This document shows positions 49,124 through 54,359 of a stretch of 58,158 nucleotides of DNA, in pieces. The stretch's first letter is position 1, and each line of letters opens with the position of its first letter. Below the pieces are notes generated by a model. It ran no database searches, was not told where the DNA came from, and worked only from the letters and a program-made list of their open reading frames with translations. The translations under genes were made by a program, and so were the position numbers. Origin of the DNA: Lachnospiraceae bacterium (GTDB taxonomy: Bacteria > Bacillota > Clostridia > Lachnospirales > Lachnospiraceae); NCBI GenBank assembly GCA_029062895.1, contig JAIDPF010000028.1, positions 1 to 58,158 on the forward strand, given 5' to 3'.

Positions 49124-50125
49124 ATGAAAGAAAGACATTTTAGAAAAGAGGTAGCAAAAAAATCTGCGAATGAAACGATAGCAGATGTGACAACGGATCC
49201 GCTGTTTGGAAGAAAGACGCTCCGTGAGATGAATTTGTAAGAGATTTATCTCTTTGATGATTTTTTATTCGGAGCGATGGTGACTTATCCGGAAATCGGA
49301 GAACGGTTTGTAAAAAGCATTTTGAAAACAATATTTGGCAGGGAGTTTAAACATCTGTCTGTCACGGCGCAGAAAGTGTTATGCGGTTCGGACTCCCATC
49401 TGCATGGTGCAAGATTGGATGTGTATACAGAACCGGAAATTGAAGATTACGGGGAAGAACGGGCAGCAGTTTATGATATTGAGCCAGACTGTAATGACAG
49501 TGCAGCGGATAAAAAGGCGCTACCACGCAGGATGAGGTTCTACCATGGCAAGATCGCCGCAAGGAGCCTGAACGCCGGAGCAGACTATGATCATCTGAAG
49601 AATGTTGTGATCATTATGATCATGCCCTATGATCCCTTTGGCAGGGATCACATGTTGTATACAATCAAAAACAAATGCGTGGAACTGCCGGAGATGGAAT
49701 ATGAGGACGGTGCAAGTACCCTGTTTCTATATACAAAAGGAACAAAGGGAATTCCCAGCGCAGCAGTAAAACAGTTGCTGTATTATATGGAAAATACTAC
49801 TTATGAGAATGCAGTCAATGAGGAGCTTCGTGAGATTCATAGGATGGTTGAGACAGTAAAAAATGATCGGGAGGTGGACGGAATGCGAATAAAAATCATA
49901 GAAGAAAACTATGAGTTGAAGCAGGAGGTCACAAGGCAGGCAGAAAAGATCACAGAACAAGCAGACAAGATCATAAGACAGGCTGAAGAAAATACAAAAC
50001 AGGCAGATGAGATTACAAAGCAGGCTGAAGAAAATGCAAAACAAGAGGAAGAAATAAAAAGACTGAGGGAAGAATTGAAACGAAGAGATGCCATGGATAA
50101 AAGTGCAAAAACTCATTCTAACTGA
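49124..50125 (+). pseudogene. Rpn/PD-(D/E)XK transposase-like nuclease gene with an in-frame stop
   Basis: The gene starts at ATG 49124 (RBS AAAGGAG) and reads 38 codons to a TAA at 49238-49240. It continues in the same frame to 50125, giving 333 codons in all. After the stop, LFDDFLFGAMVTYPEIGERFV and LPRRMRFYHGKIAARSL then YDPFGRDHMLYTIKNKC match the Rpn (recombination-promoting nuclease, PDDEXK_2) family. The usual I-E-M-Q active-site strand reads YDIEPD here. The C-terminus is a heptad coiled coil of 'KQAEENA'-like repeats. Translation could restart at ATG 49277, but that form would lack the domain's start. Probably a broken gene. Confidence 0.7.
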
Positions 50126-50224: not shown

Positions 50225-50409
50225 AATGCACATTTCAATGAAATGTTTGCAAAATAGGAATTTAATGATAGAATAGTAAAGACTTTTACATTCGGATTAG
50301 TTCACGACTTTTCTGCGGAATAGAGATCAGCGCGGAACGGTTGCTGTGGGGGATTTATTTACCGGCATGTAACATAGCTGATGCCTTCTGCATATGCTAG
50401 AGAAAGCGT

Positions 50410-50456
50410 ATGAAAGGCGTAATTATGCCGTTGGTTGTATTGGATGCCGGACACGG
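50410..50456 (+). pseudogene. 5' fragment of a split N-acetylmuramoyl-L-alanine amidase gene
   Basis: From ATG 50410 (or ATG 50425) the frame reads MPLVVLDAGHG, the first strand and zinc-ligand loop of Amidase_3 proteins, and then leaves homology at the GG of 50455-50456. The remainder of the domain lies 3.4 kb away at 53867-54359. In the present arrangement the frame runs on into the element (SGNLRKVIQ...) to a stop at 50605-50607, overlapping the start of the HD-GYP gene. Joining 50456 to 53867 restores one reading frame with the motif AGHGGADPGA. Confidence 0.88.
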
Positions 50457-50543
50457 TAGCGGTAACTTGCGGAAAGTAATACAAGACAGGGAAATACAAT
50501 CTATTGTTACGTGGAATTTGTTTTCGTACGAAAGGAGGGAGGA

Positions 50544-51965
50544 ATGGCTGTGCAAAGGAAGATTAGCAAACCACTTTTGGTTAGCGTTGTTATTCTGCCA
50601 ATTTTGATTATCATCGGTATGACATTGCTTTTTCTTCAAAATCATCGGTATAATACCCGTGAAAGGGTACATAGCTTTTCGGACGGCAGGCGGGAGGGTA
50701 CCGCATTTGTATTTGATGATGTTACGGTAGATATTGTTACAAGAGGAGGAGATACCGGTGCATGGATGAATGATCCTGTTTTAGATGATGATGAAAATGT
50801 TCTTTACACGGAGTCTGTTGGTACCATCTATGAGCTGGTAGTTATCAACAATTCTTCTGATACAATTACTGACTGGAAGGCTGTCGTATACATTCCTGAG
50901 GAAATGTGTATAGTCAATTCATGGAATGGAGATTATGAGATTCATCAGAATGTGAATTCGGGAAATGAAAGGGTTCAGGCCCTTGATCTTGCAGAGTATT
51001 CTAAGTATGACATCATACTGGAGCACTTTATGACAGTGTCCGGAGCTATGGTCCGATTGTATGAGGGGGATTATTTTATATATTATCCTGATGTGGCAAT
51101 GGGTGAAATGCCCATAGTTCCAAAGCAGAAAGACTCAGACAAAGAGAGCAGTGCCAGAATTGGCTTTATCATGTATATTCCTGAAAAGACCATTGACTAT
51201 GTAGCGGATTTTTCTAAAGGAGAGATACACTACCATCTGCACACCAGTATTTTAAAAAATCCGTTTTTCTGGATACTTTGTGTAGCGATGCTTATCTGGA
51301 TCAGTTGTTTTCTTGCAATGATTATTGTAAAGATCAATCTGCGGCGTATGATTGAACAGCAGAAACGGGACGAGAAGATTATTGAGCAGACCATGCAGAC
51401 GATTGTCAACTTCATTGAGGCAAAGGACCCTTATACCAAAGGTCATTCGATGCGTGTTGCACAATATACAAAACTGCTTGCCGAGAGTATGGGATTTTCC
51501 GAGGCTGAATGTAAAAGCTTTTATTATATTGCATTGATGCATGATTGCGGAAAGCTGTATATCCCGGATAATATTCTCACCAAACCGGGCAAGCTTACCG
51601 ATGAAGAGTATGAAATCATGAAAAAGCATACCTTATTCGGAAAAGAACTCCTTCAAGATTTTACGATCATTGAGGATATTGGCATGGGTGCGTTGTGCCA
51701 CCATGAACGCTATGATGGCAAGGGTTATCCCAATGGACTTGCAGGTGAAGATATTCCGGTGATTGCCCGTCTTATCTGCATATCAGATGCCTTTGATGCA
51801 ATGAACAGCTGTCGCTGCTATCGAAAAAATCTGACGCCGGATATTATTTTAGATGAGCTTAAGAAGAATAAGGGAAAACAGTTTGATCCAAATTTGATTG
51901 AACATTTACTGAAGCTTATTGAAAGCGGCGTAATCTCCATGTCAGACAATGTAGAAGGCGAATAA
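50544..51965 (+). CDS. membrane-bound HD-GYP protein, probable c-di-GMP phosphodiesterase (element cargo)
   Basis: 473 residues from ATG 50544 (AAAGGAGGGAGG upstream). Membrane helix 1 is at about 12-32, an extracellular domain with CARDB/DUF11-like strands at about 45-235 (YELVVINNSSDTITDWKAVVYIPEEM), and helix 2 at about 245-265. The cytoplasmic HD-GYP domain is at about 285-465: HSMRVAQYT, HDCGKLYIPDNIL with the HD pair, and HHERYDGKGYPNGL, the GYP motif. All metal ligands appear present. HD-GYP enzymes cleave c-di-GMP. As cargo in a recombinase element it may signal outside conditions or affect element and host behaviour. The amidase promoter probably drives it. Confidence 0.88.
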   Translation: MAVQRKISKPLLVSVVILPILIIIGMTLLFLQNHRYNTRERVHSFSDGRREGTAFVFDDVTVDIVTRGGDTGAWMNDPVLDDDENVLYTESVGTIYELVVINNSSDTITDWKAVVYIPEEMCIVNSWNGDYEIHQNVNSGNERVQALDLAEYSKYDIILEHFMTVSGAMVRLYEGDYFIYYPDVAMGEMPIVPKQKDSDKESSARIGFIMYIPEKTIDYVADFSKGEIHYHLHTSILKNPFFWILCVAMLIWISCFLAMIIVKINLRRMIEQQKRDEKIIEQTMQTIVNFIEAKDPYTKGHSMRVAQYTKLLAESMGFSEAECKSFYYIALMHDCGKLYIPDNILTKPGKLTDEEYEIMKKHTLFGKELLQDFTIIEDIGMGALCHHERYDGKGYPNGLAGEDIPVIARLICISDAFDAMNSCRCYRKNLTPDIILDELKKNKGKQFDPNLIEHLLKLIESGVISMSDNVEGE

Positions 51966-52006
51966 ACCTTCGTTTTACGGTACTTACATATATCTGAAAA
52001 CTATTT

Positions 52007-52037
52007 AGCATATTGGATAAGCTATATCTAATATGCT
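52007..52037 (+). promoter_or_regulatory. hairpin between the HD-GYP gene and the recombinase operon
   Basis: AGCATATTGGATA (52007-52019) pairs with TATCTAATATGCT (52025-52037), a 13-bp stem with one G-U pair and a 5-base loop. No T run follows, so it may be an operator or RNA structure rather than a terminator. Confidence 0.5.
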
Positions 52038-52091
52038 GTTATGAATAGGTTGTATAACATTTTATGGATATATGTAGGAGGGATGGCCGAT

Positions 52092-52234
52092 TGAAGGATG
52101 GCAGGCGGGAAACAGTATGCTATACCGTTGAAAGAGAATTTTTAGCCAAAATCAATGTCGCAGAGCTTGTAAACCGGATTATTCAGACCCATTTAAAAAA
52201 ACAAAACCGGAAAAGCTCTGTGAAAAAGCGATGA
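52092..52234 (+). CDS. 47-residue protein upstream of the recombinase
   Basis: TTG 52092 follows AGGAGGG by about 10 bases and opens 47 codons ending TGA at 52232-52234, overlapping the recombinase ATG (ATGA). The protein (LKDGRRETVCYTVEREF, then KINVAELVNRIIQTHLKKQ) is basic with an amphipathic C-terminal helix. A small ORF just ahead of the recombinase, with overlapping stop and start, is a common layout in Clostridial serine-recombinase elements. It could be an excision or regulatory partner; no known fold is recognised. Confidence 0.65.
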
Positions 52235-53826
52235 AGAAGCATATCCCTTTCAACGTAGCTGCATATATCAGGTTATCCAGAGAGGACGGCGACAAAGCAG
52301 AAAGCGACAGTATTGGAAATCAGAAAAAACTGATTACAGATTATTTAAACGGCAAAAACGACTTTGTTCTGTACGACACCTACATAGATGACGGTTTTAC
52401 GGGAACGAATTTTAACCGCCCGTCATTTAAGAGAATGCTTGCAGATATAGAAACAGGCAATGTGAATTGTGTGATTGTGAAAGACCTTTCAAGGTTTGGT
52501 CGTGATTACATTGATACAGGAAAATATCTGGAACGCTACTTCCCGGATAACGAAGTGCGTTTCATTTCTATTACGGATCATATTGACAGCATGAAGCAGT
52601 CTTATGATATGCTTTTGCCTATAAAAAATATTTTTAATGAGCAGTACGCAAGGGACATTTCAAAAAAAGTCCATGCTTCCATGAAAACCAAACAACGGGC
52701 AGGGGAATTTATAGGAGCATTTGCTTCCTATGGCTACAGAAAATCACCTGCTGATAAAAATAAACTGGTTATTGATGAATATGCCGCTGAAGTGATCCGC
52801 AAAATCTTCAATCTATATATAGAAGGATATGGAAAGATCCGTATTGCTGCTATGCTAAATGAGGACGGAATTGTATGCCCATCCGAATACAAAAAGATAA
52901 ACGGAGATCGCTACAGGAACAGCAACCGTTTAGAAAGTACCTCTTACTGGACGTATTCTACCATAAATCGTATTCTTCAAAATGAAATGTACATCGGTAA
53001 TATGGTACAGAACAAGAAAAGCCAGAGTATGAGAGGAAAACCAAAAGCCCAAGACAAAGAAGATTGGATTGTGGTAAAAGGTACACATGAAGCAATTATA
53101 AACGAAGAAACGTGGAACAAGGTACAGGACCTGCTAAAGCGCAGAACACGCAACCTTGACTTAAACTCTAACATAAGTATTTTTGCAGGTTTTTTGAAAT
53201 GTGGGGATTGCGGCCGGTCTTTAGTAAAGAAAACCGGAACACAGGGACGCAGCGGGCGGATTGTTAACTATTACTGTGGAACCTATGTACGTTCCGGCAG
53301 ACAATATTGTACTCCGCATCCGATTCCGCATTTGGTTCTGGAAAAAATTATTTTTGAAGACCTGAATACTATCCTACAGAGCATTGATAATATGCGTGAA
53401 GTCATTGAGCAAAACCAGGCAGCATTAGTTGCAGGAAAGCGGATCAATGAAAATGAGAAGACTCATTTGACTGCTGAACTGGAAAAAGTGCGGAAACTGA
53501 AAAAAGCTGTTTACGAAGATTATCGAAGCGAACTGATTTCCAAAGATGAATTTGTCACATATCGGCAGGACTACCTAAAGAAAGAAGCATTACTGGAAAA
53601 GCAGCTTGAACATATTGATCAACGGCAGGAAAAGGCTGTGCCGGATATTTTTGACAATCCTTGGATAAAACGCCTGTTGGAGCATGGAGCCGTTGAAAAA
53701 TTGGACAGGGACATTGTAGTAGAAATGATACATGAGATCAAGGTATATGAAAATCATAAAATTAAGATCACTTACATTTTCTCAAATGAGTTGGAAGCAT
53801 TTTTTCAAGAATGTATACGCCAATAA
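52231..53826 (+). CDS. large serine recombinase (TndX-like)
   Basis: 531 residues. The N-terminal resolvase domain (about 8-150) has the catalytic Ser in YIRLSREDG (Ser 16) and VIVKDLSRFGRDYIDTG with its conserved Arg and Asp. A Recombinase domain (about 165-300), a zinc ribbon (CGDCGRSL...YYCGTY...YCTPH, about 325-370) and a coiled coil (about 390-470) follow. This is the full architecture needed for directional integration and excision at short attachment sites. The start overlaps the small ORF by four bases. The gene ends 39 bases before the right element junction. Confidence 0.93.
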   Translation: MKKHIPFNVAAYIRLSREDGDKAESDSIGNQKKLITDYLNGKNDFVLYDTYIDDGFTGTNFNRPSFKRMLADIETGNVNCVIVKDLSRFGRDYIDTGKYLERYFPDNEVRFISITDHIDSMKQSYDMLLPIKNIFNEQYARDISKKVHASMKTKQRAGEFIGAFASYGYRKSPADKNKLVIDEYAAEVIRKIFNLYIEGYGKIRIAAMLNEDGIVCPSEYKKINGDRYRNSNRLESTSYWTYSTINRILQNEMYIGNMVQNKKSQSMRGKPKAQDKEDWIVVKGTHEAIINEETWNKVQDLLKRRTRNLDLNSNISIFAGFLKCGDCGRSLVKKTGTQGRSGRIVNYYCGTYVRSGRQYCTPHPIPHLVLEKIIFEDLNTILQSIDNMREVIEQNQAALVAGKRINENEKTHLTAELEKVRKLKKAVYEDYRSELISKDEFVTYRQDYLKKEALLEKQLEHIDQRQEKAVPDIFDNPWIKRLLEHGAVEKLDRDIVVEMIHEIKVYENHKIKITYIFSNELEAFFQECIRQ

Positions 53827-54359
53827 AGATAATAAGATGCTGTCGCAAGTTACTGCTCCCCCATGGCGGCGCCGATCCCGGCGCCGTTTATCGTGGACGG
53901 CAGGAGAAAGATGATGTTCTGGCATTGACTCTGGCTGTTGGTGAGCTTTTAGAAAGCAGCGGTGTGGATGTTTACTATACCAGAACGACAGACGTTTATG
54001 AGACCCCTTACCGGAAGGCGGAGGAGGCCAACCAGGCAGGGGCGAATTATTTTGTGTCCATTCACCGCAATTCCAGCCCCAGTCCGAACCAGTATACAGG
54101 TGTGGAATCTTTGGTGTATAATGTTTACGGTGAGGCAGCCCGGATGGCATATAGCATCAATGATAGGCTGGAACAGGTTGGATTTGCCAATCTGGGAGTT
54201 GGGGAACGTCAGGATCTCGTGGTACTGAACAGGACGGATATGCCGTCGGTGCTGGTAGAGGTGGGTTTTATCAACACAGATGCGGATAATGCTCTGTTTG
54301 ACGCACAGTTTGATGCGATTGCACAGGCGGTTGCCGATGGTATTCTAGACCGGCTCTGA
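53811..54359 (+). CDS. 3' part of the split N-acetylmuramoyl-L-alanine amidase gene
   Basis: Host sequence starts at 53867. The ORF is open from ATG 53811 inside the recombinase 3' end and reads RKLLLPHGGADPGAVYRG, so the element's last bases supply a CAT (His) codon where the amidase needs its first zinc ligand. The Amidase_3 residues in the rest are intact: Glu in GRQEKDD, His 85 in SIHRNS, and the catalytic Glu 150 in VEVGFINTDAD. What is missing is the first beta-strand, VVLDAG. The joined gene would code for about 174 residues, a single catalytic domain without signal peptide. As it stands this is either inactive or an alternative, strand-less form. Confidence 0.85.
   Translation: MYTPIKIIRCCRKLLLPHGGADPGAVYRGRQEKDDVLALTLAVGELLESSGVDVYYTRTTDVYETPYRKAEEANQAGANYFVSIHRNSSPSPNQYTGVESLVYNVYGEAARMAYSINDRLEQVGFANLGVGERQDLVVLNRTDMPSVLVEVGFINTDADNALFDAQFDAIAQAVADGILDRL

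Follow-up and report, generated by a model that had tools for sequence, protein, structure and literature searches.

Architecture of the Split Amidase Locus

The DNA analyzed here, hereafter the window, is a stretch of 58,158 nucleotides from the genome of a gut Lachnospiraceae bacterium (G000:C37:1-58158; the source assembly, G000, is 3.07 Mb and 98% complete) and contains an Amidase_3 gene that is interrupted by a 3,410-bp element within the DAGHG zinc motif of the active site. The promoter, amidase parts, attachment sites, and element genes described below lie on the forward strand. The N-terminal part of the gene (50425..50453, with an alternative ATG start at 50410) encodes MPLVVLDAG and ends with CA, the opening dinucleotide of the codon for the zinc-ligand histidine, and the C-terminal part (53862..54359; Pfam Amidase_3, 134 bits) runs from HGGADPGAV to the stop codon. 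The dinucleotide CA is shared by the left (50452-50453) and right (53862-53863) junctions. In silico removal of the 3,410 bp yields an uninterrupted open reading frame (ORF) in which DAGHGGADPGAV is restored, and joining at the CA produces DAGHGGADPGAVYRG followed by the full Amidase_3 domain; the joined ORF scores 279 bits against a local amidase profile, compared with 265 bits for the C-terminal part alone.

The element holds only an HD-GYP gene, a small ORF, and a gene for a large serine recombinase (LSR), in agreement with the initial annotation of a 3.41-kb non-phage element that splits the amidase and carries its own recombinase; phage structural or replication genes were sought on the 3,410 bp and none was found, which sets the element apart from prophages. 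The LSR gene (52231..53826) is open throughout and encodes 531 amino acids that match the Pfam models Resolvase, Recombinase, and Zn_ribbon_recom and retain Ser16 and the SRFGRD motif. DUF4368 was not matched in this protein at E ≤ 0.01; for the DUF4368 clade of multi-targeting LSRs, PMC10083194 gives this domain as present in only 63% of the members. A PADLOC scan gave weak matches only.

We assign the attachment sites attL and attR to 50441..50475 and 53844..53875. Each contains the CA core, with a right half-site AGCGGTAACTTGCG (50458-50471) in attL and a left half-site CGCAAGTTACTGCT (53844-53857) in attR, and the inverted half-sites (50455-50471 and 53844-53860) are 88% complementary. The crossover is placed at the CA because the half-sites are symmetric and the natural empty allele described below agrees; this shifts the crossover from the boundaries proposed at first (50457 and 53866), which give an element of the same length and the same joined residues.

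Empty and Filled Sites in Related Genomes

A search of 116 genomes, including G000, identified the amidase in 30 (threshold E ≤ 1e-30). In G008, a member of the same genus, the gene is uninterrupted and its 24-nt junction, GATGCCGGACATGGCGGCGCCGAT, is identical to the predicted join; MnmA, DUF2383, and YbaK lie upstream as in the window, and the downstream side ends at the contig end. In G016, also of the same genus (CAMWHY010000101.1, an uncultured Lachnospiraceae metagenome-assembled genome [MAG]), the same element, here 3,396 bp long, is inserted at the same base. The element-containing stretch of G016 is 94.4% identical to that of the window over 3,980 aligned bases, and the flanks align in two blocks of 91% identity and a third, short block of 79%. 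Given the intact G008 gene with its identical 24-nt junction and the shared insertion base in G016, the split is not a product of chance. The comparison with related genomes that had been called for thus produced an intact allele, the lack of which had been the concern.

Between G000 and G016, the ratio of nonsynonymous to synonymous substitution rates (dN/dS) is 0.083 for the C-terminal part of the amidase (20/116 synonymous and 6/373 nonsynonymous; Fisher p 5e-9), 0.131 for the LSR, and 0.148 for the HD-GYP gene, values that indicate purifying selection on all three across two species that carry the split. Relative to the intact G008 gene, dN/dS of the C-terminal part is 0.293 (G000) and 0.186 (G016). 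The synonymous rate (dS) of the element, 0.16–0.18, is close to those of the amidase C-terminal part (0.195) and DUF2383 (0.213), and the insertion is therefore probably older than the separation of the two species; dS is higher in the lipoprotein (0.307), MATE (0.387), and YbaK (0.717) genes. The simplest reading of these rates is a common ancestral insertion that was kept by selection; alternatively, the whole locus may have been transferred later. As far as sequence can speak to the claim that excision would restore the gene, the att layout, the empty allele, the intact LSR, and the purifying selection agree with it.

Relatives of the Recombinase Adjoin Three Kinds of Cell-Wall Gene

Relatives of the window LSR were collected from 397 genomes of the family, which gave 21 matches at E ≤ 1e-150 (one of them the window LSR itself), and from named genomes, where we took the best 80 of 575 relatives, a selection rather than a census. 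After duplicates were dropped (L061-L066 and L068 among 20 fetched regions, and L039, which equal L089, L119, L138, L147, L148, L150, L158, and L081), 94 loci remained: the window, 13 loci from family genomes, and 80 from named genomes, with near-copies such as L110/L111 and L113/L114 still among them. Target genes were called on six-frame translations with two local profiles, one built from 28 amidase rows and the other from PdaB-like deacetylases, and were labeled from hidden Markov model scores or, for L104, L105, L115, L116, L129, and L139, by eye; many loci have only one gene half within the fetched DNA.

Ninety-two of the 94 loci adjoin a window-type amidase gene (26), a CwlD-like gene (34), or a PdaB-like gene (32), with two of the 26 (L139 could be either amidase type) and two of the 34 called from an N-terminal part only. 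Among the named loci (best 80 of 575), 78 adjoin these targets at the motif (19 amidase-type, 33 CwlD-like, and 26 PdaB-like); the exceptions are L126, which meets a contig end, and L158, which has an unbroken attP-like site. Cultured commensals among the carriers in this named set are Mediterraneibacter agrestimuris DSM 111629, Hominisplanchenecus faecis, Parablautia muri, and Lachnospiraceae bacterium 3-2 and 10-1. The position of the break is constant: amidase C-terminal parts start at profile position 5–9 of 171, and in the PdaB profile (266 positions) N-terminal parts end at 73–81 and C-terminal parts begin mostly at 72–73, with earlier starts overrunning the junction. The target names rest on the best NCBIfam matches of intact homologs in G000, both just below cut-off: 221.9 bits to TIGR02764 for the PdaB-like gene (cut-off 237.4) and 196.5 bits to TIGR02883 for the CwlD-like gene (cut-off 221.55). 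We rejected the identification of the window amidase itself as CwlD, since its C-terminal part and the intact G008 gene score 72.5 and 82.8 bits against TIGR02883, both below that cut-off, and G000 holds a separate intact CwlD-like gene. The proposal that an amidase target would be a new example holds in that we met no earlier report of one (see below), whereas it is not a single example, given the recurrence of three gene types among the named loci.

A tree of 93 LSRs, made by a quick method and with long branches that leave some joins unsure, requires no fewer than 27 switches between the three target types, 12 of them between amidase and PdaB. Two loci from one MAG bin (L097 and L098) encode identical LSR proteins that sit in a CwlD-like and a window-type amidase gene, respectively; the coverage of their contigs differs (20 vs. 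10), so they may stem from different strains. Near-identical LSRs occur in Thomasclavelia (Coprobacillaceae) and Lachnospiraceae (L141 and L145), which indicates recent transfer. None of the related LSRs from phage and plasmid records reaches 60% identity.

Attachment-Site Rule and Rejoining of the Halves

Alignment of the junctions gives the consensus CGCAA.T.AC..CCgcCaCAtGGcGG for attR (54 rows) and GAtGC.GGgCAtGGcGGcggTaagTtGCGg for attL (24 rows). In amidase targets the CA-centered core lies within His-Gly-Gly codons. In PdaB-like targets the element is oriented opposite to the gene in 22 of 32 loci, the same way in 9, and in mixed fashion in 1 (L117). At the opposite-orientation loci the complement of GCATGG (Ala-Trp-Gly codons) supplies the same CA core; the nine same-way loci have a TG-type shared core instead, so that the target rule is not uniform. 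An uninterrupted attP lies beside the LSR of L087 and is close to both window half-sites, and the attP of L158 is more divergent; viral contigs were searched by pattern for an attP, without success. At L087:339-4710, two LSRs flank a PdaB C-terminal part, with the attP next to the second.

Both halves were available in 42 loci (40 from a joining that took amidases on the same strand only, plus L115 and L076, the latter on the opposite strand), and joining them in silico gave a complete ORF in 38; the way in which the halves were detected partly fixes their frame agreement at the motif, and the real test is that both are open to start and stop. Of the four incomplete joins, L104 meets a contig end and L074, L147, and L115 are broken again downstream, the second break in L074 and L147 adjoining another recombinase. 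L085, which is also broken twice, was left out of the joinable count. In each of the PdaB-like genes that are split at the metal motif and broken once more (L085:2252-3883, L074:15197-16636, and L147:12156-13250), a different serine recombinase lies next to the second break, and the second break of L115 is at the same MTGGW place as that of L085. PdaB seems to be a hotspot for insertion by several elements. In L074 a second LSR is nearer the C-terminal junction, and either LSR may have made that insertion.

These junctions also bear on whether the C-terminal part might work alone as an amidase from a start supplied by the element (ATG 53811), so that the N-terminus would be swapped rather than the gene switched off. 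In the window and G016 an in-frame ATG does lie 17 codons upstream, and the histidine codon is retained on the C-terminal side (LPHGGADPG). However, in 37 of 54 amidase-type loci the open stretch ahead of the junction contains no ATG, GTG, or TTG, and in 24 of these 37 a stop lies three codons upstream. The C-terminal part alone would lack the first strand together with the motif's DAG residues. In the opposite-orientation PdaB loci, moreover, it is the N-terminal part that adjoins the 3' side of the LSR. We find this explanation hardly credible.

The Amidase as a Candidate Sporulation Gene

CwlC-like mother-cell amidases are Amidase_3 enzymes of cytoplasmic type with a SPOR tail and sigmaK control, and PdaB (YbaN) belongs to the sigmaE genes. 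G000 carries Spo0A and SpoIVA, and across the 116 genomes the amidase is present in 29 of 74 with SpoIVA and in 1 of 42 without it (p 2.6e-6); the lone SpoIVA-negative carrier, G063, is 86% complete. The association holds in the other genera of the family (24/30 vs. 1/7, p 0.002). Within the genus (35 genomes), the PdaB-like gene and SpoIVA occur in the same seven genomes, three of which have the amidase (two split, one intact). In the proteins scanned, Amidase_3 begins at residue 4–9, and SPOR domains are present in four of six relatives of the window amidase.

Earlier work provides a regulatory context. In Clostridioides difficile, sigmaE and sigmaK promoters have a common -10 element and are distinguished by a -35 element of ATA (sigmaE) or AC (sigmaK), and two amidases are sigmaK-dependent, possibly for mother-cell lysis (PMC3789822). 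CwlC of Bacillus subtilis, an Amidase_3 enzyme, works in mother-cell lysis (PMC6403190); cwlD is under sigmaE, SpoIIID binds upstream of ybaN, and premature mother-cell lysis must be avoided (PMC517825). A putative sigmaK-like promoter precedes the window amidase (50372..50399), with AC at 50372-50373, a 17-nt spacer, and CATATGCTA at 50391-50399. Among 38 window-type amidase genes (26 intact and 12 split, a few with doubtful starts), 31 have CATAN3T[AG] upstream, compared with 1.8 in mononucleotide shuffles, and 15 have AC-N16/17-CATAN3T, compared with 0.23. In 32 sites aligned at CATA, positions -19 to -17 favor A, A/C, and C; the search pattern fixes positions 0–3, 7, and 8 by selection, and only the remaining positions are informative. 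The co-occurrence with SpoIVA, the promoter, and the SPOR tails of relatives make the comparison with skin drawn in the initial annotation an apt one, and the target appears to be a late mother-cell sporulation gene of CwlC-like, sigmaK type.

Genes Carried by the Element

The HD-GYP gene (50544..51965, from an ATG; the frame is also open from a GTG at 50511) encodes a protein resembling c-di-GMP phosphodiesterases, with 114 bits to HD_5 and 130 bits to its best model, NF053512, under that model's cut-off of 400. This cargo is common to the window, G016, and L083, whose protein is 85% identical. An intact HD-GYP gene under selection could point to a vegetative or environmental switch, for example one linked to c-di-GMP, in place of a sporulation switch. 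However, the gene is found in only 3 of the 94 loci as fetched (the window, L081, and L083), and the L083 element sits in a PdaB-like gene; the cargo is therefore independent of the target. Since the window amidase, in addition, tracks SpoIVA and has a mother-cell-type promoter, we regard such a switch as very unlikely.

The small ORF (52064..52234) overlaps the start of the LSR gene, and a TTG at 52091 is its likelier start (about 47 amino acids). Its motif, YTVEREFL..K..V.ELV.RII..H, is matched as a regular expression in 86 of 94 loci, a few of the matches being spurious. The structure model is weak (mean pLDDT, the predicted local distance difference test score, 73; pTM, the predicted template modeling score, 0.37). 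Conserved and placed just upstream of the LSR, this ORF is a candidate for the directionality factor of the system.

Known Gene-Splitting Elements and a Proposed Mechanism

To our knowledge, the gene-splitting elements described so far in sporulation genes are a handful of individual cases whose targets are unrelated. Like these, the window element lies inside a predicted sporulation gene, has its own recombinase and att sites with a shared core, and would restore the ORF upon excision. SprA (YokA) of SPbeta is a distant homolog of the window LSR family (E 2.9e-24), and the best match to a solved structure is TnpX (chain 2mhc, 120 residues, E 1.5e-35), an LSR of Tn4451 type; the window family, in contrast, targets sites at fixed motifs. 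Tn4451 is a transposon and has a different way of life.

The known elements comprise skin, SPbeta in spsM, vfbin in spoVFB, gin in gerE, and yin in yabG (PMC5595907, PMC10747680, PMC5025042). The gin element of Bacillus cereus ATCC10987 is similar in being non-phage, in having a serine recombinase and inverted-repeat att sites with a short core, and in splitting a sporulation gene (PMC5595907). Its excision rebuilds gerE during sporulation with an extra factor, GirX, whereas excision of the window element is predicted; gin is directed at gerE and has three recombinases, whereas a single LSR family is found here beside three kinds of cell-wall gene, in many genera, at metal-motif codons. The C. 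difficile skin in sigK also relies on an LSR and a recombination directionality factor (CD1231 and CD1234) and is excised in the mother cell to restore a sporulation gene, but it is prophage-like and its target encodes a transcription factor, unlike the 3.4-kb non-phage element in an enzyme gene (PMC5025042). The same principle, in which excision of a recombinase-bearing element rebuilds a sporulation gene, applies to yin in Clostridium botulinum (PMC10747680) and to SPbeta in B. subtilis (PMC4191935), both of which are prophages or prophage-like and have other targets.

The gene-splitting principle is already known; the spore-stage cell-wall targets appear to be new. Among the titles and abstract openings searched, with preprints and most subscription journals outside the scope, no report of an amidase, cwlD, or pdaB gene as the target of such an element was met, and the words "amidase" and "deacetylase" are absent from the main text of the paper on LSRs with conserved targets (PMC10083194).

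Based on the evidence above, we consider it likely that the window element belongs to a family of gene-splitting elements that are specialized for mother-cell peptidoglycan genes and are excised in the mother cell to rebuild them. We posit that a compact non-phage element mobilized by its LSR resides in a CwlC-like, sigmaK-type amidase gene of a Lachnospiraceae bacterium that has spore genes. The LSR would act on attP and on a short attB lying across the codons of a metal-binding motif (CAYGG core), and this recombination would split the gene. Later, as the mother cell differentiates terminally, this LSR would recombine attL and attR at the CA, probably together with a directionality factor for which the small ORF is the candidate, so that the element is circularized and the amidase ORF is rebuilt while the forespore genome retains the element. 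We infer excision activity and its mother-cell timing, as well as a part for the amidase in late sporulation or mother-cell lysis, from the DNA and its relatives. The site would suit both sides: disrupting a gene that is silent during growth costs little, and the spore keeps its copy of the element when excision happens in a terminal cell.

Several observations weigh against this reading. A joined amidase site was sought in the remainder of the G000 assembly and none was found, although an assembly would rarely show one. Family searches with the small ORF returned no informative match and no similarity to directionality factors, and its comparison between G000 and G016 (10/120 nonsynonymous, 3/33 synonymous) reveals no detectable constraint. 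The upstream regions of the LSR operon, in rows that are related to one another, are mildly enriched in sporulation -10-like sites (34/88 vs. 17) and show no clear enrichment of AC-N16/17-CATA (6/88 vs. 3.6). The window amidase, the G008 gene, and several others are without a SPOR tail. At L117:9025-11817 the PdaB halves are in opposite orientations around the LSR, perhaps through an inversion, and simple excision cannot rebuild the gene. Finally, four of the seven SpoIVA-positive members of the genus are without the amidase at E ≤ 1e-30, so the enzyme is dispensable there.

This last observation also counts in favor of plain selfish insertion, in which the conserved motif is a dependable landing site, the amidase is inactivated, and excision is rare and unregulated. 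LSRs aimed at conserved genes are already known (PMC10083194), and the LSR tree implies frequent target switching. Against this, both halves are intact in nearly all joinable loci, the C-terminal part has a low dN/dS between two species that carry the split, and the genes found to be targeted are those of the spore-stage cell wall rather than an arbitrary set of conserved genes; we judge selfish insertion unlikely.

The recurrence of one recombinase family beside three kinds of spore-stage cell-wall gene, under a common CA-core sequence rule, makes it possible to test, through comparative analysis and in cultured strains from the gut, why such elements settle in sporulation genes. It also provides a group of LSRs whose att sites are related. 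A broader proposition, which we hold to be evenly balanced, is that these LSRs form a large, undescribed guild specialized on mother-cell peptidoglycan genes with metal-motif DNA as attB, such that many gut Firmicutes would assemble CwlC-like, CwlD, and PdaB genes by programmed rearrangement. If true, several genes would sometimes be assembled at once by the same recombinase, and lytic and cortex enzymes would be under a DNA-level lock.

Neighboring Genes and Other Recombinases

Directly upstream of the amidase (49277-50125) is a gene resembling Rpn-family nucleases, with a match of 27 bits to TIGR01784 that is below cut-off and a charged, repetitive C-terminus; in the fetched G016 and G008 loci its only aligned counterpart is a weak 49-residue repeat match. 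Two IMG/VR contigs (L188, 127 kb, and L189, 33 kb) encode LSRs that are 51–52% identical to that of the window and lie at the extreme contig end, which falls just past the LSR stop codon; these contigs are possibly phages that use the same kind of site. Elsewhere in G000, three adjacent serine recombinases (L002-L004; G000:C82:75607-80412) are 32–38% identical to the window LSR; their contig also holds the intact PdaB-like gene, at a distance of about 35 kb.

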